A DNA stretch of 64,000 nt from Halopseudomonas sabulinigri (GTDB lineage Bacteria; Pseudomonadota; Gammaproteobacteria; Pseudomonadales; Pseudomonadaceae): NCBI GenBank assembly GCA_011053055.1, contig DRHT01000043.1:1-64000 (forward strand), written 5' to 3'. The notes beneath the pieces were generated by a model. That model had not been told where the DNA came from, did no database searches, and worked only from the letters and a program-made list of their open reading frames with translations. Position 1 is the stretch's first letter. The number at the start of each line of letters is the position of its first letter. Below, one piece after another: positions 11,549 through 63,808 of the stretch. The position numbers and the translations under genes are program-made.

Positions 11549-13249
11549 ATGGAAATCAGCAGACAGGCCTACGCCGAAATGTATGGCCCAACCACCGGCG
11601 ACCGGGTACGCCTGGGTGATACCGAACTCTGGATCGCCGTCGAAAAGGACATGACACGCTACGGCGAAGAAGTGAAGTTTGGCGGCGGCAAAGTCATCCG
11701 CGACGGCATGGGGCAGAGCCAGCGCACCCGTGCAGAAACGCCGGATACCGTGATCACCAATGCGTTGATCCTCGACTGGTCGGGCGTTATCAAGGCGGAT
11801 GTCGCGCTCAAGGATGGCAACATCCAAGCGATCGGCAAGGCCGGTAACCCAGACATTCAGCCGGGTGTCGATATCATCATCGGACCTTGCACCGAGATTA
11901 TTGCTGGTGAGGGCATGATTCTTACCGCTGGCGGCATTGATGCGCACATCCACTTTATCTGCCCTCAGCAGATCGAAGAGGCGCTGATGTCGGGGATTAC
12001 CACCATGATTGGCGGTGGCACCGGCCCGGCGACCGGCACCAATGCCACTACCTGCACGCCGGGTGCCTGGCACCTCGGCAAGATGTTGCAATCAGCTGAA
12101 TGCTTCCCGATGAACCTCGGCTTTCTTGGAAAGGGCAACGCGAGTCTGCCGGATGCCTTGGAAGAGCAGATTGAAGCCGGCGCGATGGGCCTCAAGCTGC
12201 ACGAAGACTGGGGTACCACGCCTGCAGCGATTGACTGCTGCCTGAGCGTGGCAGACGTCTACGATGTGCAGGTGGCGATTCACACCGACACCCTGAACGA
12301 GTCGGGCTTTGTTGAAGATACGTTGGCGGCCATCAAGGGCCGGGTGATTCATACCTACCACACCGAAGGTGCAGGTGGTGGCCACGCGCCGGATATTATC
12401 AAGGCCTGCGGTGAGCCCAATGTACTGCCATCGTCGACCAACCCTACGCGGCCCTACACGGTCAATACGGTGGACGAGCATCTCGACATGCTGATGGTCT
12501 GTCACCACCTTGATCCGGCCATCGCGGAAGACGTGGCATTTGCTGACTCGCGTATTCGCCGCGAAACCATTGCCGCTGAAGACATCCTGCATGACCTGGG
12601 TGCCTTCTGCATGATCTCGTCTGATTCGCAGGCCATGGGCCGCGTGGGTGAGGTGGTCACGCGTACATGGCAGACCGCGCACAAGATGAAAGTGCAGCGT
12701 GGCCCGCTCGATGGCGATGATGAATGGTCCGACAATACGCGCGCCAAGCGTTATATCGCCAAGTACACCATCAACCCGGCGATCACCATGGGGCTGTCGG
12801 ATGTAGTGGGCTCAGTAGAGGTTGGCAAGCTGGCCGACCTGGTGCTGTGGAAACCGGCGTTTTTTGGCACCAAACCCAGCCTGATTCTCAAAGGTGGCTC
12901 GATTGCTGCGGCGCCCATGGGTGACCCCAATGCTTCGATCCCGACACCTCAGCCCGTGCATTACCGGCCGATGTTTGGTGCTTTTGGTAAGGGGATGGAT
13001 ACCACTTGTGTGACCTTTGTCTCCAAGGCTGCCATCGACGCCGGGATTGCCGACAAGCTAGGCCTGAGCCGTCGGCTGGAAGCCGTACGCAATACCCGCA
13101 CCATCAGCAAAGCCGATATGAAACTCAATGATTATCTGCCCGATATCAGCGTTGATCCGCAGACCTATGTGGTTAAAGCGGACGGCGTCGAGCTGCTGTG
13201 CGAGCCAGCAACCGAGCTGCCGTTGGCCCAGCGTTACTACCTTTTTTGA
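11549..13249 (+). CDS. ureC: Urease subunit alpha (catalytic)
   Basis: A 566-residue catalytic subunit of full length. Nickel ligands and active-site residues are intact. His133 and His135 lie in [10 protein letters not shown]. The carbamylated lysine is Lys216 in [11 protein letters not shown]. His245 lies in [12 protein letters not shown]. The flap motif is VCHHLDPA and the Asp ligand sits in [14 protein letters not shown]. It hydrolyses urea using a bi-nickel centre assembled by UreDEFG from the same operon. Confidence 0.98.
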
Positions 13250-53714: not shown

Positions 53715-54494
53715 TCAGTTAGCTAAGGCCAGTGGCGCGTTAACCGCTGTTTGGCCAAGCAGATTGCTCAACTGGCCGCTTTCCAGTGCAGCAGCCACCA
53801 CCTCGCCAATCACCAGTACCGCTGGACTTTGCAGTGCAAAGGCAGCTGCCTGCTGGCATAGGTCGTCCAAGCGGCAGGCGTGTTGCCGTTGCTGGGGTGA
53901 GCTAGCTTGCTCGATCATAGCAATGGGGGTGCTGGCGGGCATGCCGCCTTTTAGCAGGCCTTGTTGAATCTGCTGCAAGCGCGCGACGCCCATGTAGACC
54001 ACTAAAGTGGTGCCGCCTTGCGCCAAACCCTGCCAATTCAATTCGCTGTCGTCCTGCGTATGGGCCGTGACTAGAGTAACGCCGCGACTGACGCCACGCA
54101 GGGTCAGCGGAATGCCGCACTGAGTTGCGCCGGCAAGCCCCGCGGTGATGCCATTGATAATCTCCGACTCCACACCCCGTTCACGTAGCCAAATGGCCTC
54201 TTCACCGGCACGCCCAAAGATGCAGGGATCCCCGCCCTTGAGCCGCACCAGGCGCTTGCCTTGGCGGCCATAACGCAGCATCAAACGGTTGATAAAAGCC
54301 TGCGGTGTGGAGCGGCAGCCGCCGCGTTTACCGACGCGTATAATGCGCGCCTGCGGGCAGTGTTCGAGTATCTGCGGGTTAACCAGATCATCCACCATGA
54401 CGATCTCGGCCTGACTGAGTACTCGGGCTGCCTTCAAAGTGAGCAGTTCAGGGTCGCCTGGGCCGGCGCCAACCAGCCATACTGTTGGATTCAT
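53715..54494 (-). CDS. cobA: Uroporphyrinogen-III C-methyltransferase (siroheme branch)
   Basis: A 259-residue SAM-dependent methyltransferase. VWLVGAGPGDPELLTLKAA, KRGGCRSTPQAFINRLM, RLVRLKGGDPCIFGRAGEEA and GITAGLAGATQCGIPLTLRG are the CobA/SUMT motifs. It makes precorrin-2 for siroheme, the cofactor of nitrite and sulfite reductases. Last gene of the nitrate reductase operon, 29 nt after nasA. The ATG at 54494 has AAGGAG 9 nt upstream. Confidence 0.95.
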   Translation of the reverse strand: MNPTVWLVGAGPGDPELLTLKAARVLSQAEIVMVDDLVNPQILEHCPQARIIRVGKRGGCRSTPQAFINRLMLRYGRQGKRLVRLKGGDPCIFGRAGEEAIWLRERGVESEIINGITAGLAGATQCGIPLTLRGVSRGVTLVTAHTQDDSELNWQGLAQGGTTLVVYMGVARLQQIQQGLLKGGMPASTPIAMIEQASSPQQRQHACRLDDLCQQAAAFALQSPAVLVIGEVVAAALESGQLSNLLGQTAVNAPLALAN

Positions 54495-54523
54495 GGATGT
54501 GTGCTCCTTGGATTCGATGGTCT

Positions 54524-57229
54524 TCATGCGGGCACCGCCACGCTGTTGAGCAGGCGCTTTATTTCGGGGACGCAGGAGCCGCACTGCGTACCGCAGCCGA
54601 GTTCCTGCTTGAGGCCGTCCAGGTTCAGGCCGCGTTCAATACCGGCGCAAATCTGGTTTTGGCTGACGTTCATACAGTTGCACAGGGTTTTGTCCACCTG
54701 GTTACTGGAGCCACCCGGTGGGGTGCTGATAGGTGCGAGAAACCAGCGGCGTAGGTCGGCATCGGCTTCACCGCTCTGCCAGACGCTGCGTAGCCAGTTG
54801 CGTGCGGCGGTTTCGCCGGTCAGGCGGATGGCGGTGATGCGGCCATCTTCGATTTTTACGCGTTTGCCAATAGCTCGTTGGGGGTCGTCGTAACTTAGTA
54901 CTGGACCGCTATCCAGGCCTACCAAGGCGTCAATTTGCTCCAGCAGTGCGACGTCCGGCGCATGTGCGGAGGCTGCGCGTATCAATAGGGCGGGGCGCTC
55001 ACGTCCGGTCAGGCCCATACCCAGATAATCAAGGCTTTCACACAGGGGGCGAATGGCCTCGAAGCGCTCCTGTACCTTGCCTTCTGCCAGAATAAATAGC
55101 TCCCACGGCAGTTCTGCGCGGCGAATATTGATGCTGCTCTGTTTGAGCTCCGGCTGCTTGGAAATGGGGTCGAAGGCCGGCTGGGTCAGCACGTTGCAGC
55201 CCAACCCTTTCAGGAAGCGGTCGCCCCAGTGCATTGGCAGAAAGGCTTGCCCAGGACGAATCTGCTCATCCGAGTGCACCGGCAGTATCAGTTCCCCGCG
55301 GCGACTTCTGACGCGTACCAGATCGCCATCGTTCAGGTTTCGGCTGCTCAGCTCGTCGGGGTGCAAGCTGAGCAGTGCTTGCTCAACATGGCCAAATAGT
55401 TGAGCGGCGGTGCCGGTACGGCTCATGCCGTGCCATTGGTCGCGCAAACGCCCGGTGTTGAGCATCAGCGGAAAGCGCGCGTCGCATTTTTCCTGCGGTG
55501 CGTGGTAAGGCTCGGCAATAAAGCGCGCGTTACCGTTCTCGGTAGCAAAGCGGCCATCGGTATACAGACGCGGCGTGCCTTGGCGTGTTTGTGCGTTGAA
55601 TGGCCATTGTTGTGGACCCAACTCATCAATCAACTGATAGCTAAGGCCGCTGTAGTCGAGGTCGCGGCCTGCTGTCAGCCGCTTGTATTCGTCGAAAATT
55701 GCCGAGGGCGAGCTGAAGTCGAACAAGCTGGGTTGGCCAGGACGCAGTTGTTTTTCTAGCCGACGAGCAAAGTCACACACGATAGCCCAGTCGGGGCGGG
55801 CATCGCCCGGCGCCGGAACAGCAGAGCGCACGTGGCTGATGCAGCGCTCGGAATTGGTCACAGTGCCTTCTTTCTCGCCCCAGCTGGCGGCTGGCAACAG
55901 TAGGTCGGCGTAGCGGCAGGTCTCGGTGGTAAAGAAGGCTTCTTGCACTATCACGAACGGGCAGGCGGCCAGGGCCTCGTGGATCAGTGTTTGGTTAGGC
56001 ATCGATTGCGCCGGATTGGTACAGGCAATCCACAATGCTTTGATGCGGCCGCTGCGCACGCCTTCAAAGAGCTCGACGGCAGACAGGCCGACATTCGAAG
56101 GGATATGATCTACGCCCCAATAGTCGGCAACCTCGGCGCGATGCTCTGCGTTGGCGGCTTCGCGGTGTCCGGGCAGCAAATTGGACAGGCTGCCTGTCTC
56201 ACGGCCGCCCATGGCGTTGGGTTGGCCGGTGAGCGAGAAAGGACCGCTGCCGACCTTGCCGATCTGGCCGCTGGCCAGGTGCAGATTGATCAGCGCGTTG
56301 TTTTTGGCACTGCCAGAGCTGGACTGATTCAGACCCATGCACCAGAGCGATAGAAAGCTGGGTGCGGTGCCGATCAGTTTGGCGGCGCTGTGCAGGTCGT
56401 CTTCGCTGATGCCGCACAACTGGGCGGTCATCGCCGGACTGTAGTCGCGCACCAGGTTCTTCAGGTCATCAAAGCCGTCGGTATGAGCGTCGATGAAGGC
56501 GCGGTCGATCCAGCCTTCCTTCAGCATGATATGCAAAATGCCGTGGAACAGGGCCACGTCGGTACCGGGCTCTATGGCTAAGTGCAGATCGGCGATTTCA
56601 CAGGTGTCGGTGCGCCGTGGATCGACCACGATGATGCGCTTGTTAGGGTCGGCCGCCTTGGCGGCTTCCAGCCGGCGAAACAGCACAGGATGGGCGAAGG
56701 CCATGTTGCTGCCGGCGATCATCAGGCAATCGCTTTGCTCAATGTCTTCGTAGGAGCAGGGCGGTGCGTCAGCGCCCAAGCTGCGCTTGTAGCCAACCAC
56801 GGCGCTGGACATACACAGGCGCGAGTTGCTGTCGATGTTGTTGGTGCCGATCAGCGCACGCGCCAGCTTGTTGAAACTGTAGTAATCCTCGGTCAGCAGC
56901 TGGCCGGAGATATAAAAGGCGACACTGTCGGGTCCGTGCTCGGCAATAGTGCGGCCGAACACTTCAGCGGCGTGGCCCATGGCGCTGTCCCAGTCGGTGC
57001 GGCTGCGTGACAGACCTTTGCCCAAGCGCAGCTCCGGGTAGAGCGCGCGGGCAGCCAAATCACCGGTTTTGTGCAGGGTAGAACCCTTGCTGCACAGTCG
57101 GCCCAGGTTGGCCGGGTGATTGGGATCGCCAGTCACATTCAGAACGTGCTCGCCATCATGCTCGATCAGCACGCCACAGCCGACGCCGCAATAGCAGCAG
57201 GTGGAGGCAGTTGTTTGCGTGCGCGTCAT
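54524..57229 (-). CDS. nasA: Assimilatory nitrate reductase catalytic subunit
   Basis: A 901-residue molybdopterin enzyme. The N-terminal [4Fe-4S] motif is Cys11-X2-Cys14-X3-Cys18-X27-Cys46. The Mo-bisMGD domain follows, with the active-site region SRLCMSSAVVGYKRSLGAD. A C-terminal BFD-like [2Fe-2S] domain (CNCMNVSQNQIC and CGTQCGSCVPEIKRLL) takes electrons. Cytoplasmic; no Tat signal. It reduces nitrate to nitrite, with electrons from the FAD reductase encoded 4 nt upstream (overlapping ATGA). The [2Fe-2S] domain at the end compensates for its absence in that reductase. Confidence 0.95.
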   Translation of the reverse strand: MTRTQTTASTCCYCGVGCGVLIEHDGEHVLNVTGDPNHPANLGRLCSKGSTLHKTGDLAARALYPELRLGKGLSRSRTDWDSAMGHAAEVFGRTIAEHGPDSVAFYISGQLLTEDYYSFNKLARALIGTNNIDSNSRLCMSSAVVGYKRSLGADAPPCSYEDIEQSDCLMIAGSNMAFAHPVLFRRLEAAKAADPNKRIIVVDPRRTDTCEIADLHLAIEPGTDVALFHGILHIMLKEGWIDRAFIDAHTDGFDDLKNLVRDYSPAMTAQLCGISEDDLHSAAKLIGTAPSFLSLWCMGLNQSSSGSAKNNALINLHLASGQIGKVGSGPFSLTGQPNAMGGRETGSLSNLLPGHREAANAEHRAEVADYWGVDHIPSNVGLSAVELFEGVRSGRIKALWIACTNPAQSMPNQTLIHEALAACPFVIVQEAFFTTETCRYADLLLPAASWGEKEGTVTNSERCISHVRSAVPAPGDARPDWAIVCDFARRLEKQLRPGQPSLFDFSSPSAIFDEYKRLTAGRDLDYSGLSYQLIDELGPQQWPFNAQTRQGTPRLYTDGRFATENGNARFIAEPYHAPQEKCDARFPLMLNTGRLRDQWHGMSRTGTAAQLFGHVEQALLSLHPDELSSRNLNDGDLVRVRSRRGELILPVHSDEQIRPGQAFLPMHWGDRFLKGLGCNVLTQPAFDPISKQPELKQSSINIRRAELPWELFILAEGKVQERFEAIRPLCESLDYLGMGLTGRERPALLIRAASAHAPDVALLEQIDALVGLDSGPVLSYDDPQRAIGKRVKIEDGRITAIRLTGETAARNWLRSVWQSGEADADLRRWFLAPISTPPGGSSNQVDKTLCNCMNVSQNQICAGIERGLNLDGLKQELGCGTQCGSCVPEIKRLLNSVAVPA

Positions 57230-58470
57230 GCGGCAGCCTGGTGATACTGAGCTTCGTCGTTTTGAGCAGGCTGGCCGAACATGAGGTGATTACGCAGCTG
57301 ACTGACGTTCTGGCCTTCGCGCAGTAACGTGAGATACCAATTGCTATCGCCGGTATCGCCATACAGGCAGACGCCGACCAGGCGATCGTCTTTTAGCACC
57401 AGTTTCTTGTATATGCCGGAGATCGGGTCGCTGAGCGTGATGCTTTCGGTGCCTTCTGCGCCCATAAAGTCACCCACCGAGAACAAATTGATGCCGGTGA
57501 CCTTGAGCTTGGTAGAGGTGATGGAGCCCTGGTAGCGTTGATAGCCCAGTCTGGCCAGATGGTTGGCACAGACCTTCGCCTGCTCGAATAGCGGCGCAAC
57601 CAAACCATAGGCTATGCCTCTGTGGCTAACGCATTCGCCGATAGCATAGATGCGCGGGTCGAAGGTCTGCAGCGTGTCGTTGACCAAAATACCGCCATTG
57701 CAGGCCAATCCGGCTCGCTCTGCGAGCTCGATATTGGGGCGAATGCCCGCAGCCATGACCACCAGATCAGCGGCAATACGGCTGCCATCACTGAAGTCCA
57801 GCGCGCAAACACGCCCCTGCGTATCGCCGTGTAGCTGTGCAGGCGGCAGTCCAAGCCGAAACTGAATGCCACGTTGCTCAAGGGCGGCCTGCAGTTGTTG
57901 GCCGGCGCGCTCGTCTAGTTGGCGATCGAGCAACCACTGACCCTTGTGAATGACGGTCACTTGCATACCGCGCAGCGTAAGACCGTTAGCAGCTTCAAGG
58001 CCCAACAGACCGCCGCCGACGATAACGGCGTGCTTGTGGGTCAGGGCGGTGTCCATCATCAATTGGGTATCATCGATGTCGCGATAGCCAATCACGCCCG
58101 TTAGGTGGTTGCCAGGCAGCGGCGGCATGAACGGGTTAGAGCCAGTGGCAAGCAGCAAGCGGTCGTAGTGAGCCTCGGTGCCATCCTCTGCAACTACCTT
58201 ACGGCCCCGGCGATCTATGGTGACGATGCGTTTGCCGGTGTGCAGGGTGATGCCGTGGCTGTGATACCAATCGAGATCATTCAATATGATGTCGCTGAAT
58301 TCCTGCTCGCCCGCGAGTACCGGCGACAACATGATGCGGTTGTAATTGGGGTGCGGTTCGGCACCGAATACGGTGATGTCGTAAAGGTCGGGGGTCAGTT
58401 TGAGCAGTTCTTCCAGGGTGCGTACCCCAGCCATGCCGTTACCGATCAATACGAGTTTGAGCTTTTGCAT
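57226..58470 (-). CDS. NAD(P)H-dependent FAD reductase, electron donor to nitrate reductase (NirB N-half/NasC-like)
   Basis: A 414-residue flavoprotein. LVLIGNGMAGVRTLEELL is the FAD motif, AVIVGGGLLGLEAANGLTLRG the NAD motif and ECVSHRGIAYGLVAPLFEQ is typical of the NirB N-terminal half. It stops where NirB would continue into its BFD and siroheme domains, so it lacks nitrite reductase parts. It presumably passes electrons from NAD(P)H to NasA. The ATG at 58470 follows CGGAG with 8 nt spacing. An antitermination-type leader lies just upstream. Confidence 0.88.
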   Translation of the reverse strand: MQKLKLVLIGNGMAGVRTLEELLKLTPDLYDITVFGAEPHPNYNRIMLSPVLAGEQEFSDIILNDLDWYHSHGITLHTGKRIVTIDRRGRKVVAEDGTEAHYDRLLLATGSNPFMPPLPGNHLTGVIGYRDIDDTQLMMDTALTHKHAVIVGGGLLGLEAANGLTLRGMQVTVIHKGQWLLDRQLDERAGQQLQAALEQRGIQFRLGLPPAQLHGDTQGRVCALDFSDGSRIAADLVVMAAGIRPNIELAERAGLACNGGILVNDTLQTFDPRIYAIGECVSHRGIAYGLVAPLFEQAKVCANHLARLGYQRYQGSITSTKLKVTGINLFSVGDFMGAEGTESITLSDPISGIYKKLVLKDDRLVGVCLYGDTGDSNWYLTLLREGQNVSQLRNHLMFGQPAQNDEAQYHQAAA

Positions 58471-58498: not shown

Positions 58499-58591
58499 AA
58501 AAAAAGGCGCCCCTTCTGCTCACGCAGTAGGGACGCCTTTGTCCAGGTCCTGTTCGATCAGGAAGGCAGGGTCATCGCCGTTGACAGCCCC
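58499..58591 (-). promoter_or_regulatory. ANTAR-type antitermination leader 3 (reductase-nasA-cobA operon)
   Basis: On the minus strand P1 has hexaloop AACGGC (58577-58582) in a stem with one mismatch. P2 is a perfect 5-bp stem TCCTG-ATCGAA-CAGGA (58548-58563), whose loop has A1 and G4. A terminator follows (AAAGGCGTCCCT/AGGGGCGCCTTT, 58503-58540, T-run). This is the two-hairpin ANTAR target followed by a terminator; NasT, encoded upstream, is the obvious effector. Confidence 0.8.
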
Positions 58592-58627
58592 GCATTGTAT
58601 TCGTTGTTTAACGATGCTGAGTACAAA

Positions 58628-58642
58628 GCAGGTTCTGTGCCA
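58628..58642 (-). promoter_or_regulatory. Sigma-54 promoter of the reductase-nasA-cobA operon
   Basis: TGGCAC-AGAAC-CTGC on the minus strand: GG and GC at exact spacing, one departure (C for T) in the -12 element. The predicted start is near 58617, 26 nt before the P1 hairpin. Confidence 0.65.
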
Positions 58643-58746
58643 AGGTGCTACCGCCAATGATATTGGTGGCCTTGGGCGGCACCTCCGAAGATTTTTGGTC
58701 TGCCAGGTGCACTGTCATGTAGCGTCTCGCACTGCCGTGGGGCGGA

Positions 58747-60414
58747 CTATTGATCCAGCAGCAGGACCACCAGTAGCAGGTTGAGCGCGAGAGAGCCAAG
58801 GGCGAAGTAGCGCCAAAACCGCAGCGGATCGCGATTGAGCAGTGGTTGATGACTGCTGTGCAGCGGCCGGCTTTCACCCTGGGCCAGTTCGAGCAGCCAC
58901 TCTTCGGCGGTTTCAAAGCGCTCCTTGGCCTCCACTGCGACGGCGCGCAACAACAGATCATCGATCCAAGGCGGCACGTCCGGGCGATAGCGGCTGGGTG
59001 GCGTTGGCTTGCTAAAACGGGGTCGCTGGAAGGCTTCTACTTCGCCGTAGGGGTAGTGACCCGTGAGCAGAAAGTACAAGGTTATCCCGATACTGTAGAT
59101 ATCTTGCTGGGTGCTTGGCTCGGCGCCATTCAACACTTCCGGCGCCATATAGCTTGGCGTGCCCGGGGCGTTGCCGTTTTCCTGCTGCGTCAGACCGGGG
59201 CAAAAGGTCAGACCGAAGTCGAGTACGCGCAATTGACCGTCCTCACCCTGCAGCAGGTTGTCGGGCTTGATGTCGCGGTGAATTAAGTTGCGCTGATGCA
59301 GCTTGCCGACGGCTTTGATCAACTGCGCTGCCAGTTCCCGCCAGGCAGGAATGCTCAGCAGTCCCTGTTGGCGACGTTGTTCCTCAAGGGTTGCGCCCGC
59401 GTACTCGCGCATGACGTAGTACAGGTGGCGTCGTTGTGGCAATGGATGCAGTTCAGGCGTGAATGCACTGGCAACGCGGCGCATAAACCACTCTTCAAGC
59501 ACCAGAGCGTGACGTGCCTGCTCGTCGTCGTGCAGGCTGGCCGGCAGGGTTTTCAGCAGCCAGGTCTGGTTGAGGGAATCACGTACACGGTAAAGCACCG
59601 ACTGCCGAGACTCGGCGCGCACGTTAACCACCTCCCAGCCTTCAAATTGCTGACCGGATTTCAGCTGTGGCGGTAACGCGCGTTCATCCAGCGGCGCTAA
59701 AGCGTCGCTGAGCGATGATTCAGGTAACGCGTCCACGCGTACCAGTAGAGCACTGGCATTGTCCTGGCTCCCCGCGCGGTGCGCGCGCTCCAGTAGAGTG
59801 CGGCAGATTTCGTCAAACGCCTGTTCGTGCAGGATGCTGTGGATTTCACTGTCTTTGAGTGAAGCCCAAACCCCGTCACTGACGATCAGCAGCTGATCAT
59901 CAACGCGCAGTTCACCTTCGATGTAATCCATCAGTAGATGTTCATCCAGGCCAAGCGCGCGTTTGAGCACGTGCTCCATGCCTGGCTGTTCCCATACGTG
60001 TTCGGTAGTCAGGCGGCGCAGCTTGCCGCCCCGTAGCAGGTAGGCTCGGCAGTCGCCGATATGTGCAAAGGTATAGCGGCAGCCGCGCATCACCAGCGCA
60101 GTCAGGGTGGTAAGCAGGGGCTGTCCACCACCGTTGGCACGCAACCAGCGGTTATGCGCGGTCAGCAGCTTGTCCAATGCGTGGGGTATGGTCCAGGTTT
60201 CCGGCGTTGAGTAGTAATCCAACGCCAACGCTTGGAGTGTGGCATTGGCGGCCAAGCCACCGTCTTGGCATTGGCTTACGCCATCAGCCACGGCCAGCAA
60301 ATGGCCTTTACTGGCGGCCAGCCGCGGGGCGGGAGTGACCACGCGCACAGCATCTTGATTCTGCGCGCGCGGACCCTTATCACTGGCTTCGCTGATGCTC
60401 AGCTGTAGCGCCAT
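58747..60414 (-). CDS. Bifunctional PP2C phosphatase-Ser/Thr kinase, membrane anchored
   Basis: A 555-residue fusion. The N-terminal PP2C-type phosphatase (1-240) keeps its metal-binding residues: KGPRAQNQDAV, VADGVSQCQDGG, SDGVWASLKDSE and GSQDNASALL. The kinase domain (about 260-520) has HRDIKPDNLL, VLDFGLTF and GTPSYMAPEVL, but the glycine-rich loop is not recognisable (VRAESRQSVLYRV). A C-terminal membrane helix (YFALGSLALNLLLVVLLL) anchors it. It follows the nitrate transporter by 1 nt. Such fusions occur in pseudomonad nitrate loci; their target is unknown. Confidence 0.9.
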   Translation of the reverse strand: MALQLSISEASDKGPRAQNQDAVRVVTPAPRLAASKGHLLAVADGVSQCQDGGLAANATLQALALDYYSTPETWTIPHALDKLLTAHNRWLRANGGGQPLLTTLTALVMRGCRYTFAHIGDCRAYLLRGGKLRRLTTEHVWEQPGMEHVLKRALGLDEHLLMDYIEGELRVDDQLLIVSDGVWASLKDSEIHSILHEQAFDEICRTLLERAHRAGSQDNASALLVRVDALPESSLSDALAPLDERALPPQLKSGQQFEGWEVVNVRAESRQSVLYRVRDSLNQTWLLKTLPASLHDDEQARHALVLEEWFMRRVASAFTPELHPLPQRRHLYYVMREYAGATLEEQRRQQGLLSIPAWRELAAQLIKAVGKLHQRNLIHRDIKPDNLLQGEDGQLRVLDFGLTFCPGLTQQENGNAPGTPSYMAPEVLNGAEPSTQQDIYSIGITLYFLLTGHYPYGEVEAFQRPRFSKPTPPSRYRPDVPPWIDDLLLRAVAVEAKERFETAEEWLLELAQGESRPLHSSHQPLLNRDPLRFWRYFALGSLALNLLLVVLLLDQ

Positions 60415-60415
60415 A

Positions 60416-61627
60416 TCAGACTCGCGCAGCGGTCATGGACGACGCGCCCCACGTAGTGCGCCAGCGGCGTTTGACGTTCAGCAGGCCGAACCAGGCCAGA
60501 ATGCCGAGGCTGGCAAACAGCCAGAGACCGATCTGGTAGTCGCCAGTGTGCTGTTTGATGGCGCCCAAGCCAGCAGCAAGGATAAAGCCACCTACGCCGC
60601 CTGCCATACCGATCAAGCCGGTCATAACGCCGATTTCACGGAAGAAGCGCTGTGGCACCAACTGGAATACCGCGCCGTTGCCCGCGCCCAAGCCCAACAT
60701 GGCGGTCACAAAAAAGGTCAGTGCCGCGTACGAGCTGGAGAGGTTGAAACCGACGATGGCGATGCACACGGCAGCAATGCCATACATGAATAGCAGCGAG
60801 CGAATGCCGCCGATGCGGTCAGCCAGAGCGCCGCCAAGGGGGCGCATCAAGCTGCCGGCCATCACGCAGGCTGCAGTGTAGTAACCGGCGGTCACTGGGC
60901 TCAGGCCGTACTGATCGCTGAAGTAGCCAGGCAGGGCGCTGGCCAGGCCGATAAAGCCACCGAAGGTTACGCTGTAGAAGAACATGAACCACCAGCTGTC
61001 TACATCCTTGAGTGCCTTGGAGTAGTCCTTCAATGATTTGGGAGCTGGGCGCTGGGGAGAATTTTTGGCCAGTATGATAAACAGGAGCAAGGTAATGGCC
61101 AGCGGGATCAGCGCCAAACCGAATACATTCTGCCAGCCGAACAGGTAGGCGAGGCCCGGAGCGAAAATCGCTGCCATCACAGTGCCAGAGTTACCGGCAC
61201 CGGCAATGCCCATAGCCTTGCCCTGATGCTCCGGCGGATACCATTGCGAAGCCAGCGGCAGCGCGACGGCGAAGGAGGCACCGGCAAAACCAAGACCAAG
61301 GCCGAGCATGAGCGTGTGCTGATAGGTGTCTATACCCAGCTGCCACGCCAGCAAAAGCGTGCAGATGACCACTACCTGACCGATGATGCCAGCGGTTTTC
61401 GGTGATAGACGATCAGCCATAAAGCCCATGACTAGCCGAAGCAATGCACCGGCGAGGATAGGCGTGGCGACCATAATGCCCCGTTCCTGTGCGCTCAGGT
61501 CCAGATCGGTAGCAATTTGCACCGCGAGTGGGCCAAGCAGGTACCAGACCATAAAACTCAGATCGAAGTAGAGAAAGGCGGAGAATAACGTGGGAGTGTG
61601 TCCGGCTTTCCAGAAGCTTTTGTTCAT
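60416..61627 (-). CDS. NarK/NasA-type nitrate transporter (MFS)
   Basis: A 403-residue major-facilitator protein with 12 helices. The nitrate-signature glycine-rich segments GIAGAGNSGTVMAA (TM5) and GLGAGNGAVFQLVPQ (TM11 region) are intact, as is GGALADRIGG. It takes up nitrate and/or nitrite. First gene of a two-gene unit with the PP2C/kinase, preceded by leader 2. Confidence 0.93.
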   Translation of the reverse strand: MNKSFWKAGHTPTLFSAFLYFDLSFMVWYLLGPLAVQIATDLDLSAQERGIMVATPILAGALLRLVMGFMADRLSPKTAGIIGQVVVICTLLLAWQLGIDTYQHTLMLGLGLGFAGASFAVALPLASQWYPPEHQGKAMGIAGAGNSGTVMAAIFAPGLAYLFGWQNVFGLALIPLAITLLLFIILAKNSPQRPAPKSLKDYSKALKDVDSWWFMFFYSVTFGGFIGLASALPGYFSDQYGLSPVTAGYYTAACVMAGSLMRPLGGALADRIGGIRSLLFMYGIAAVCIAIVGFNLSSSYAALTFFVTAMLGLGAGNGAVFQLVPQRFFREIGVMTGLIGMAGGVGGFILAAGLGAIKQHTGDYQIGLWLFASLGILAWFGLLNVKRRWRTTWGASSMTAARV

Positions 61628-61690
61628 ATGGCAGTCCTCTCAGCGCCGCATGGCGCGCTTTGCAGCATGTACTACCCGCTACTTCGGGGC

Positions 61691-61776
61691 AAAAAAAAAC
61701 GCCATCCCTTATCCCGGAGTAACTCCAGGTTGAGGATGACGTCGTTGTCTGTGTAGGTAACCGCCGTTGGCTACCT
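61691..61776 (-). promoter_or_regulatory. ANTAR-type antitermination leader 2 (nitrate transporter operon)
   Basis: On the minus strand P1 is an 8-bp stem AGGTAGCC/GGTTACCT (one G-U) with hexaloop AACGGC (61763-61768). A P2 candidate, GAC-AACGAC-GTC (61738-61749), has A1 and G4 but only 3 bp. It overlaps the 5' arm of the terminator (ACGTCATCC/GGATGGCGT, 61699-61742, nine T), so the two are mutually exclusive. Confidence 0.75.
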
Positions 61777-61788
61777 GCTACAGACCAA

Positions 61789-61803
61789 GCAGGATATGTG
61801 CCA
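61789..61803 (-). promoter_or_regulatory. Sigma-54 promoter of the nitrate transporter operon
   Basis: TGGCAC-ATATC-CTGC on the minus strand, same one-base departure as for the nasA operon promoter. The predicted start is near 61778, directly before the P1 stem. Confidence 0.65.
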
Positions 61804-61819
61804 GAGCACGAAAAGCAGG

Positions 61820-62398
61820 CTACTCGCCGAGCATTTCGTGCATGGCGATGATTTGCTCGGCTACCTGAATCAGCTTCTGTTGGCGGCTCATTGCTTGGCG
61901 GCGCATTAACGTATGTGCCTCGGACTCATCGCAGTTCTTCATTTTCATCAGCAAACCTTTGGCCTTTTCTACCCGCTTGCGCTCATTCAGCTGCTGCTCG
62001 CGTGCATGCAGTTCGGCGCGCAGTTGCTGGTCGGACTCAAAACGGGCCATGGCGACATCCAGTATCGCCTTGAGTCTGGAGCTCTCTACGCCTTCGATTA
62101 TGTAGGCGCTTACGCCAGACTGAATCGCCTGGCGCATGATTGCGGGGTCTTGTTCATCGGTGAACAGCGCAATGGGATGGGGCAGGTCACGGCTGAACAG
62201 GCAAACCTGCTCCATTACGTCGCGGCCGGGTGAATCGCTGTCAATCAGAATGACATCGGGCTTGGCGCTCTGTACCCGCGCCGGCAGGTCGATGGTCAGG
62301 CCGGATTCGTCGATAACCTCAAAGCCTGCCTCCAGCAAGGCGCCCTTGAGCTTGCCGACTTTTTTAACAGTGTCGTTGATCAGCAGAATGCGCAGCAT
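61820..62398 (-). CDS. nasT: Nitrate antitermination regulator NasT (receiver-ANTAR)
   Basis: A 192-residue protein: N-terminal receiver domain (1-120; Asp53 in VILIDSDSPG), a coiled linker (about 110-140), and a C-terminal ANTAR RNA-binding domain (about 135-190; RVEKAKGLLMKMKNCDESEA, LMRRQAMSRQQKLIQVA). It binds two-hairpin leader RNA and prevents termination. NasS sequesters it when nitrate is absent. It follows nasS by 31 nt. Confidence 0.95.
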   Translation of the reverse strand: MLRILLINDTVKKVGKLKGALLEAGFEVIDESGLTIDLPARVQSAKPDVILIDSDSPGRDVMEQVCLFSRDLPHPIALFTDEQDPAIMRQAIQSGVSAYIIEGVESSRLKAILDVAMARFESDQQLRAELHAREQQLNERKRVEKAKGLLMKMKNCDESEAHTLMRRQAMSRQQKLIQVAEQIIAMHEMLGE

Positions 62399-62429
62399 GA
62401 TTTATCAAACAATCCTTGATGACAAAAGT

Positions 62430-63644
62430 TCAGTTAGCCTGTTGTACGGCGGCGTCGGTCATGGCGTGCAGATCGAAACTGCGGGCGTAGGCGGCTGGGT
62501 CGCTGCCGTCCCATACTTGCCCGTCCATCAGCGTGCTGCTGCGTAGCGGGCTGGCTGGCAGATCTATACCCAGTGCGCTGGCCGCTTGCTGATAGAGGTC
62601 GAGCTGTTGCACCTGTTTGGCGACGGCCAGGTAATCTGGCTCCTCACGTAGCAAGCCCCAACGACGGAACTGGGTCATGAACCAGAGTCCATCAGACAGG
62701 TAAGGCATGTTTACCTCGCCGTCACCGTGAAAACGCAGGCGATGCTCGTCACGCCATTCGTTACCGCGGCCATCGACGTAATCGCCCAGCATGCGAGGCT
62801 GCAGCGACGCCAATGGTGCATTGACGTAGTCGGCACCGCTGATGAGCTGAGCGGTGCTGCGGCGGTTATCGTCACTCTCATCGATAAAACGGCTGGCATC
62901 CAGAATCGACATGATCAGCGCGCGGGCGGCATTGGGGCACTCCTCAACAAAACGCTGGGTGGCGCAGAGCACTTTTTCGGGATGATTAGGCCAGACTGAT
63001 TGGCTGGTCGCCAGGGTATAACCCATACCGTCTTCGATGGCGTGAGCGCCCCAGGGTTCGCCGGCGCAGAAACCATCAATGCGTCGCGCCCGCAGGTGTT
63101 CGACCATCAATGAAGGGGGAACCACACGGGTATCAACGTCGCGTAGTGGATGAATGCCGTTGGCCGCAAGCCAGTAGTAGAGCCACATGGCGTGGGTGCC
63201 GGTCGGGAAGGTCTGCGCCAGGCACAGCTTGGTATTGCCGAGTAGAGCGCGTTCAACCAAGGCTTGACTGCTATCCACGCCGGTTTCCAGCATCGGCTGT
63301 GACAAGTTGATGCTCTGGCCGTTCTGGTTCAGCCCCATCAGTACTGCCATAGGCGTTTGAGCGCTGCCAAGCCCAAGCTGGATGCCATAAACCAAGCCGT
63401 ACAATCCCTGAGCGGCATCCAGCTCACCGTTGAGCAGGCGATCGCGCAGGGCCGACCAGGATTGTTGGCGCTGCAGATTGAGGGTCAAACCATAGGGTTG
63501 AGAGAATCCCTGAGTGGCAGCGACGATCAACGAAGCCGAATCAGTCAGTGGCATGAAGCCCAGGTTCAAGATGTGCTTTTCCGGGGCATCGCTGCCGTTG
63601 ACCCAGGCGAGTACGTCGTCGCGCGGATTGTCTGTCTGCTTCAT
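62430..63644 (-). CDS. nasS: Nitrate sensor NasS
   Basis: A 404-residue protein of the NrtA/CmpA solute-binding family: LNLGFMPLTDSASLIVAATQ, GELDAAQGLYGLVYGIQ, RIDGFCAGEPWGAHAIEDG. There is no signal peptide, as expected for cytosolic NasS, and no permease/ATPase genes are adjacent, so it is a sensor not a transporter component. It binds nitrate and releases NasT. First gene of nasST, which carries its own leader 1. Confidence 0.92.
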   Translation of the reverse strand: MKQTDNPRDDVLAWVNGSDAPEKHILNLGFMPLTDSASLIVAATQGFSQPYGLTLNLQRQQSWSALRDRLLNGELDAAQGLYGLVYGIQLGLGSAQTPMAVLMGLNQNGQSINLSQPMLETGVDSSQALVERALLGNTKLCLAQTFPTGTHAMWLYYWLAANGIHPLRDVDTRVVPPSLMVEHLRARRIDGFCAGEPWGAHAIEDGMGYTLATSQSVWPNHPEKVLCATQRFVEECPNAARALIMSILDASRFIDESDDNRRSTAQLISGADYVNAPLASLQPRMLGDYVDGRGNEWRDEHRLRFHGDGEVNMPYLSDGLWFMTQFRRWGLLREEPDYLAVAKQVQQLDLYQQAASALGIDLPASPLRSSTLMDGQVWDGSDPAAYARSFDLHAMTDAAVQQAN

Positions 63645-63666
63645 TTGTCAGTCCTGATGCTGCATT

Positions 63667-63753
63667 AAAAAAGCGCCGCACGCCCGATGGCGGCAGCGCA
63701 TCTTATCCGTAGATGCCGCCTGCTGCCAGTCGAGGGTACGACGCCGTTGTCGT
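63667..63753 (-). promoter_or_regulatory. ANTAR-type antitermination leader 1 (nasST operon)
   Basis: On the minus strand P1 is a perfect 5-bp stem ACGAC-AACGGC-GTCGT (63738-63753). P2 is GCATCT-ACGGAT-A-AGATGC (63698-63716), whose loop has A1 and G4 plus one extra base. The terminator (GCGCTGC/GCGGCGC with an inner stem, 63667-63699, six T) overlaps P2 by 2 nt and ends 22 nt before the nasS start codon. Confidence 0.78.
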
Positions 63754-63793
63754 GGAGTGTCCCGTGTCACGGGGCTATGTTGGTATAGCACCA

Positions 63794-63808
63794 GCAAAGC
63801 CTGTGCCA
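63794..63808 (-). promoter_or_regulatory. Sigma-54 promoter of nasST
   Basis: TGGCAC-AGGCT-TTGC, followed by T, is a perfect sigma-54 consensus on the minus strand. The predicted start is near 63783, 30 nt before P1. The element abuts the stop of the universal-stress-protein gene. Confidence 0.8.

Follow-up and report, generated by a model that had tools for sequence, protein, structure and literature searches.

Predicted NasT antitermination leaders of the nitrate assimilation units of Halopseudomonas sabulinigri

The nitrate locus and its leader RNAs

Three minus-strand units of a nitrate locus lie in the window analysed here, a 64,000-nucleotide stretch of Halopseudomonas sabulinigri DNA that forms the first 64 kb of contig C43 (genome, 3.8 Mb). 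The units are nasS-nasT, a NarK-type transporter with a PP2C/kinase fusion, and a flavoprotein gene with nasA and cobA. We examined the leader RNAs of these units as candidate targets of NasT, a predicted RNA-binding protein with an ANTAR domain. The genes and promoters are as follows.

63794..63808, minus strand: sigma-54-type promoter of the nasST unit (exact pattern match)
62430..63644, minus strand: nasS, NMT1-like nitrate-binding protein (Pfam PF13379)
61820..62398, minus strand: nasT, pseudo-receiver and ANTAR RNA-binding protein (PF03861 2.4e-17; PF00072 below cut-off)
61789..61803, minus strand: sigma-54-type promoter of the transporter unit (exact pattern match)
60416..61627, minus strand: NarK-type MFS transporter (Pfam PF07690)
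58747..60414, minus strand: PP2C phosphatase and protein kinase fusion of the transporter unit (Pfam PF13672, PF00069)
58628..58642, minus strand: sigma-54-type promoter of the reductase unit (exact pattern match)
57226..58470, minus strand: FAD/NAD-dependent oxidoreductase like the N-terminal half of NirB (TIGR02374 positions 1-405, below family cut-off)
54524..57229, minus strand: assimilatory nitrate reductase, a nasA-type molybdoprotein with a BFD [2Fe-2S] domain (Pfam)
53715..54584, minus strand: cobA-type uroporphyrinogen methyltransferase, last gene of the reductase unit (open reading frame (ORF); same neighbour in relatives; start uncertain), provisionally called cobA as in a first-pass annotation of the DNA

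That annotation, made from the sequence alone, had each unit begin with TGGCAC-N5-(T/C)TGC, and this held. The pattern TGGCAC-N5-YTGC has three matches in the window, one upstream of each unit and none elsewhere. Shuffled windows held a mean of 0.76 matches and reached three in 5 of 100 cases. The GG at -24 and GC at -12 of sigma-54 promoters, spaced 10 bases apart, are present in the three window promoters and in the promoter of a nirBD operon outside the window. Across the whole genome there are 73 sigma-54-like sites and 37 matches to the reversed pattern.

In each leader the sequence AACGGC is the loop of a hairpin (minus strand 58582-58577, 61768-61763 and 63748-63743). Its contiguous stem is 8 bp in the transporter leader and 5 bp in the nasST leader, and no other AACGGC hairpin of the window reaches 5 bp. 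The reductase-leader stem is interrupted, with 2 bp adjoining the loop. An intrinsic terminator with a T-run precedes the first gene of every unit, as had been proposed, and the three leaders fold better than their shuffles (z -4.05, -4.22 and -3.37). Hairpins were placed by folding, with the Rfam models RF03032 (narK RNA) and RF00625 (P11), and with R1. R1 is a covariance model built from 45 cores of relatives, the window excluded, and it models only the two-hairpin spacing of transporter and nasS leaders; one of its 45 rows, from locus L035, is another leader and not a nasS upstream region. In the list, P1 and P2 are the first and second hairpins.

61755..61776, minus strand: P1 of the transporter leader, 8 bp, loop AACGGC (R1 model, fold; RF03032)
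61738..61749, minus strand: P2 of the transporter leader, GAC[AACGAC]GTC, overlapping the terminator arm (R1 model, fold)
61691..61743, minus strand: terminator with T-run, transporter leader (RNAfold)
58566..58593, minus strand: P1 of the reductase leader, loop AACGGC, interrupted stem (RF00625; fold)
58548..58563, minus strand: middle hairpin of the reductase leader, TCCTG[ATCGAA]CAGGA, G:C-closed (fold, alignment of relatives)
58531..58544, minus strand: third hairpin of the reductase leader, GGAC[AAAGGC]GTCC, overlapping the terminator arm (fold; alignment, invariant and so without covariation evidence)
58499..58540, minus strand: terminator with T-run, reductase leader (RNAfold)
63761..63773, minus strand: degenerate P1 of the nasST leader, CCCG-TGACA-CGGG, 5-nt loop (sequence, fold, comparison with loci L052 and L016)
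63738..63753, minus strand: P2 of the nasST leader, ACGAC[AACGGC]GTCGT, its 3' arm being the terminator 5' arm (covariance models, fold)
63667..63745, minus strand: terminator with T-run, nasST leader (RNAfold)

ANTAR targets, in the accessible parts of two papers (PMC3369931, PMC7496416), consist of two hexaloop hairpins with A at loop position 1 (A1), G at position 4 (G4) and a C:G closing pair, the second hairpin overlapping a terminator. In all three window leaders the downstream hairpin of the pair overlaps and excludes an intrinsic terminator. In the minimum free energy folds of these leaders and of the nirBD leader, the 3' arm and half of the loop of the downstream hairpin pair with the 3' arm of the terminator. 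Forcing the downstream hairpin costs, relative to the terminator fold, 15.2 kcal/mol in the reductase leader, 7.3 in the transporter leader, 9.0 in the nasST leader and 12.1 in the nirBD leader. Two hexanucleotide-loop hairpins with A1 and G4 are present in the transporter and reductase leaders, and in the nirBD leader as well.

A strict descriptor of two hairpins and a terminator fits three places in the window: the transporter leader, the reductase leader and, spuriously, position 60778 within the transporter gene. The nasST leader is not matched. Sixty dinucleotide shuffles gave a mean of 0.017 matches.

The nirBD leader is a fourth leader of the same sigma-54 and ANTAR type. It lies on the plus strand (L106:11267-11510; C43:74267 onward), 10.5 kb past the last window promoter, and carries the hairpins GGTGGTC[ATCGTC]GACCATC, GAGC[AACGAA]GCTC and CCAGGC[AACGGC]GCCTGG, all three with A1, G4 and C:G closing pairs. 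The third overlaps the terminator. Genome G012 has the same three hexaloops, and G011, a genome with no NIT protein, has two such hexaloops before nirB. A genome-wide search for sigma-54-like sites followed by a hexaloop pair and a T-run returned four places: the transporter, reductase and nirBD leaders and a porin. The degenerate first hairpin of the nasST leader keeps it off this list. Its mononucleotide-shuffle control (0.02 hits) is weak, and we rely on the dinucleotide-shuffle control of the window descriptor instead. The porin, an Alginate_exp-type gene on contig C1 (L109:1340-1515), has a sigma-54-like site and a strong P11-like terminator hairpin, GGGC[AAAGGC]GTCC. It was dropped as a further target when a first ANTAR hairpin was not found there.

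Conservation of the leaders among relatives

Relatives were taken from the best 80 of 530 loci that encode a NasT relative, the nearest of which is a Pseudomonas neustonica locus (L009; 96% identity). The covariance models recognize the leaders to different degrees. Matches above the gathering cut-off are RF03032 at the transporter leader (53 bits; cut-off 43.2) and RF00625 at the reductase leader (58506-58654; 75.5 bits; cut-off 70). The narK RNA model stays below its cut-off at nasST (32.4 bits) and at the reductase leader (24.4 bits). Over the whole genome the three leaders are nonetheless its three best matches (E 5.8e-9, 3.8e-4 and 0.028; next 0.084), with nasST second. R1 gives the transporter leader 44.6 bits, nasST 21.4 and the reductase leader 14.0, which rank 1, 2 and 4 in the window. 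Both Rfam consensus sequences open on a sigma-54-type promoter and so contain DNA expected to lie outside the transcript.

The transporter leader is a predicted full ANTAR two-hairpin target. The terminator takes its 5' arm from the last loop letters and 3' arm of P2. Upstream regions of relatives were searched with descriptors whose patterns fixed A1 and G4 in most loops as well as the arms of P2; given a choice of first hairpins, the one with the best pairing was kept, which inflated the P1 counts for nasS, and these were redone with a letter anchor. Of 62 transporter upstream regions, the window counted, 60 fit the descriptor, and in the two that it misses (L016 and L052) the hairpins are present with a linker at least 1 letter shorter (R1, 36.1 and 36.8 bits). 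The first loop is AACGGC in 52 of the 60 and C:G-closed in every one. The MAFFT alignment A3 misplaces the second hairpin of Halopseudomonas transporter leaders, and no pairs were counted on it. When R1 was run on the loci of 15 relatives it found an extra leader before another ORF in L012 (39.5 bits) and L061 (41.0 bits). Extra two-hairpin leaders lie at L012:13643-13684, L061:14568-14608 and L035:3122-3163; in L012 and L061 the ORF behind the extra leader sits between nasT and the transporter and may encode a nitrate ABC transporter.

The reductase leader has three hexaloop hairpins, the third sharing letters with the terminator. The descriptor fits all 42 reductase or nirB upstream regions, the window counted. 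Their first loop is AACGGC in 5, AATGGC in 1 and another AACGNN in 36. Together with the transporter counts, this shows that the first loop, called invariant in the first-pass annotation, varies among relatives. P1 and the third hairpin are C:G-closed in 42 of 42. The middle hairpin is G:C-closed in all 42 and is therefore not canonical.

Covariation was counted on an unanchored alignment, A2, of 39 of the 42 reductase-type leaders, which kept the window and 38 of 41 relatives after removal of near-duplicates. The letters of P1 and the third hairpin, not the middle hairpin, had served to pick the rows, and all 41 relatives qualified. Pairs form in 97.1% of cells, compared with 92.5% after shuffling, and changes on both sides occur in 22 cells, compared with 3.7 in shuffled and at most 3 in slid controls; all fall within the first two hairpins. 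Three pairs of P1 changed on both sides, as did one of the middle hairpin (33 C-G, 6 T-A, none broken), and the third hairpin shows no variation. In the middle loop, positions 2 and 3 vary among the 39 leaders, G4 is kept in 39 of 39 and A1 in more than 90%. Apart from its G:C closing pair, the middle loop varies as one would expect an ANTAR loop to vary.

In the nasST leader, the AACGGC hairpin is aligned to the second hairpin by two covariance models (narK RNA and R1) and by the relatives. The first-pass annotation had made it the first of two, identical in all three leaders; the loop is indeed common to all, but not its place. The other AxxGxx loop of the nasST leader, ACGGAT (63710-63705), is T-A-closed and lies inside the terminator hairpin. 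A typical relative's first nasS hairpin, such as CTCC[AACGGC]GGAG, lies 20-27 letters upstream of the second. At that place the window has its degenerate hairpin, L052 has CCCG[AATGAC]CGGG, G:C-closed, and L016 has CCCG-ATTAAT-CGGG, without G4. The two-hairpin design claimed for all units fits the transporter leader and, with a further hexaloop hairpin, the reductase leader; the nasST leader has a degenerate first hairpin.

Eighty nasS regions were usable (the window and 79 relatives); L035 was dropped because its contig begins inside nasS. P1 was anchored by letters alone. The second hairpin, GAC[A..G..]GTC followed by a T-run, occurs in 71 of the 80; in 63 of these it is preceded, at a distance of 20-27 letters, by C[A..G..]G. 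The second hairpin stands alone in eight (the window, L016, L044, L047, L052, L062, L073 and L088). Neither hairpin was found in 9 of the 80 regions (L009, L010, L012, L013, L020, L029, L034, L037 and L045). Among the 63, pairs 3 to 6 of P1 are formed in 42, 48, 46 and 52, above all 500 shuffles. As a prediction, self-control of nasST by NasT is supported for the wider group, but the case for it is weak in this genome.

The partner protein and the proposed mechanism

Two proteins of this genome have an ANTAR domain above the Pfam cut-off: NasT and a NasR-like protein with NIT and ANTAR domains on contig C15 (L107:5990-7360; NIT 5.4e-50, ANTAR 2.5e-19). We surveyed 38 genomes, this one included, for R1 leaders at E <= 0.01 and for NIT proteins, whose ANTAR domain was tested in G000 alone. 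R1 leaders occur in 10 of the 38: nine of 25 from the same genus and one distant genome. Within the genus they are found exactly in the nine with a NasT of at least 76% identity. The distant genome has a NasT-like protein at 40%, and five other distant genomes with NasT-like proteins at 30-38% have no R1 leader. P11 matches reach at least 64.9 bits in the same nine NasT genomes and 36.6-48.9 bits in five NasT-free ones.

The five NasT-free genomes keep the terminator and have lost loops: none of the 5 has the middle A1/G4 loop, and 4 of 5 lack the first. This comparison was anchored on the AAAGGC hairpin, so that all 13 of 13 leaders contain it by design. Among eight NasT relatives, stems of at least 3 bp give the first hairpin in 6 and the middle one in 7. 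The middle reductase hairpin is kept across Pseudomonas and missing where NasT is missing. In the five NasT-free relatives (L229-L233) the nirB-type leader retains its terminator and AAAGGC hairpin, and a short first loop is left in L233; they form a natural series of losses.

The NasR-like protein on C15 could be thought to control the leaders in place of NasT. It is encoded in this genome, NasR and NasT targets obey the same two-hairpin rule in the available text of one study (PMC7496416), and a terminator leader still precedes a nirB-type gene in five NasT-free relatives whose NIT proteins are of NasR size (an internal stop interrupts one of them). However, G001 and G011 carry both the leaders and NasT yet encode no NIT protein at E<=1e-10, and no R1 leader accompanies the NasR-sized NIT protein of G002, G016, G019 and G021. 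The nirB-type leaders of these four lack the middle hexaloop, and three of the four also lack the first. We regard control by the NasR-like protein as highly improbable. The occurrence of the leaders follows NasT more closely than NIT proteins, which makes NasT their likely partner. A similarly improbable account has the leaders act as released small RNAs, their hairpins serving a role in trans. The reductase leader is listed in Rfam among small RNA genes, as P11, and any terminated leader is necessarily a short RNA; P11 is described, in an excerpt of one paper, both as a small RNA mediating worm avoidance and as a regulator of a nitrogen assimilation operon (PMC12080996). Yet in the loci examined the leader lies in sense directly upstream of a nitrate gene, the Rfam model contains the promoter, and the 3' hairpin is a terminator arm. 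A trans role would add to the cis role, not replace it.

These comparisons argue strongly that NasT-controlled antitermination leaders govern the nitrate units, with complete targets on the transporter-kinase, reductase-nasA-cobA and, outside the window, nirBD units, and a target with a decayed first hairpin on nasST. In the mechanism that we propose, sigma-54 RNA polymerase would start each unit when fixed nitrogen is short, presumably activated by NtrC. The nascent leader would form its intrinsic terminator by default. When nitrate or nitrite is present, NasS would release NasT, and the ANTAR domains of the released protein would grip two hexaloops. In the folds, the 3' arm of the downstream hexaloop hairpin and the second half of its loop also serve as the terminator's 5' arm. 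NasT binding would block the terminator, and transcription would continue. The nasST unit has the same layout, and because its first hairpin has decayed, self-regulation is probably weak or being lost there.

The first-pass annotation had placed sensing, uptake and reduction under one NasT switch. For uptake and reduction such a switch is well supported as a prediction by the hairpins, the mutually exclusive terminators, their conservation and their presence only in the NasT genomes of the genus. For sensing the claim is weak in this genome, the first nasST hairpin being broken and the nearest relative leaderless at nasS.

Several results weigh against NasT antitermination as the common control. 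The nasST leader does not have two A1/G4 hexaloop hairpins, only the second being intact, and the search of nasS regions found no nasST leader in L009, the nearest relative. Run against the whole genome, R1 reaches significance at the transporter leader alone (E 9.2e-7). Its second match, nasST (E 0.21), is close to what chance yields; the reductase leader ranks 13th (E 9.9), and nirBD is absent from the matches listed. A search upstream of the four promoters for an NtrC-like enhancer gave nothing above background: the best matches have 3, 4, 3 and 2 mismatches, and 300 random 220-nt stretches mostly have 3 or 4, with 2 in 28 of them. The second ANTAR protein could share targets with NasT. R1 training sequences may come from some of the nine NasT genomes, and matches there are partly expected. 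The absence of R1 leaders from 16 NasT-free genomes is not expected from training, but three of these are only 79-83% complete.

We give a little under an even chance to the nasST leader being a decaying relic, with only the transporter, reductase and nirBD units under NasT here. Its first hairpin is broken in the window, the L016 loop lacks G4, nine relatives lack even the second hairpin, and its R1 score lies well below that of the transporter leader. On the other side, its second hairpin, terminator and promoter are intact, it is the second-best narK RNA match of the genome, and a single hairpin can still be bound by NasR according to the partial text of PMC7496416.

The extra reductase hairpin may carry a meaning of its own. 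NasT is reportedly oligomeric once released from NasS. The P11/NalA class, named also for the P. putida leader described below, might be a three-hairpin ANTAR target whose additional middle A1/G4 hexaloop has a reversed, G:C closing pair; the three canonical hexaloops of the nirBD leader in this lineage would be an independent case. This extra site could let NasT bind reductase and transporter leaders differently, and uptake, reduction and sensor would then respond to nitrate at different NasT levels. We offer this only tentatively and would sooner bet against it.

Known systems and further observations

NasT antitermination of a nirBD leader has already been reported for P. aeruginosa and P. 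putida. NalA is reportedly the NasT-bound leader of the P. putida nirBD operon (Nie et al. 2024), and antitermination of nirBD-PA1779-cobA in P. aeruginosa is said, in the title of Romeo et al. 2012, to occur. A review citing the P. putida work describes, in the portion available, a sigma-54/NtrC start of NalA and its antitermination by NasT (PMC12830290). As far as that portion goes, the reductase leader resembles NalA in its sigma-54/NtrC-type promoter, leader terminator, predicted NasT antitermination and position before a nirB-type gene. It differs in preceding a short NirB-like flavoprotein-nasA-cobA unit, nirBD being located at another site and having a separate leader. P11 and NalA are very probably two names for one RNA, because in P. 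aeruginosa PA7 the RF00625 match (109.6 bits) sits directly upstream of nirB.

The transporter leader shares with RF03032 the promoter, the AACGGC hairpin and GAC[AAxGxC]GTC in the same order. The Rfam model contains promoter DNA and ends before the terminator; of the two hairpins it marks the first and leaves the second unannotated. Leaders of nasS also match RF03032, above the cut-off in L011 and L050 (two of six loci searched). The Klebsiella nasF/NasR, EutV and AmiR leaders have, in the sources as excerpted, the same design of two hexaloops and a terminator overlap. They answer to other ANTAR proteins, whereas here several leaders occur per locus, one with an extra hairpin. Selection experiments (SELEX) with NasR, and likewise mutants of EutV, favour a C:G or fixed closing pair in the parts at hand of PMC7496416 and PMC3369931. 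NasT of Bradyrhizobium diazoefficiens likewise has several leaders, that of nosR shown and those of genes such as nirA, narK and bjgb predicted; its regulon differs in including denitrification genes, and the accessible portion of that paper (PMC6759348) does not describe a nasST leader. In Paracoccus, NasT shifts the nasA leader (PMC3795266, in part), and replacement of hairpin I of this leader abolishes growth on nitrate (PMC5424462, in part).

A largely open-access literature gave, among the matches listed, no link of narK RNA or P11 with NasT and no ANTAR leader on nasST. The narK and nasST leaders as NasT targets, the link between the two Rfam families and the conserved extra hairpin therefore appear to be new. 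The nirBD leader, the third reductase hairpin, the second ANTAR protein and the recognition of the reductase leader as a known kind of NasT leader go beyond the first-pass annotation. The P11 'small RNA', the narK RNA motif and leaders of the sensor genes would thereby come together as probable targets of a single protein that nitrate releases, and the binding rule can be tested on lineages that have naturally gained or lost NasT and its sites. P11 is reported, in the excerpt available, as a bacterial RNA behind inherited avoidance in C. elegans (PMC12080996). If it is a terminated nitrate-operon leader, it should be produced under nitrogen limitation without active NasT.

Minor observations concern neighbouring genes. 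Of 61 relatives with a transporter match, 60 have the PP2C-kinase fusion as the next gene after the transporter, 4-283 bases away; in the 61st, L061, the locus ends at that point. A sub-threshold match to PAGEV RNA (25.4 bits; cut-off 61.1) falls within the PP2C-kinase gene at 60233-60372. Directly downstream of the NIT and ANTAR gene on C15 are a cobalamin riboswitch and a TonB receptor. The 5' ureB small RNA is an RNA of Helicobacter and is not known from pseudomonads. Its Rfam family, RF02514, matches the minus strand of the window strongly at 11695-11981 (122 bits).

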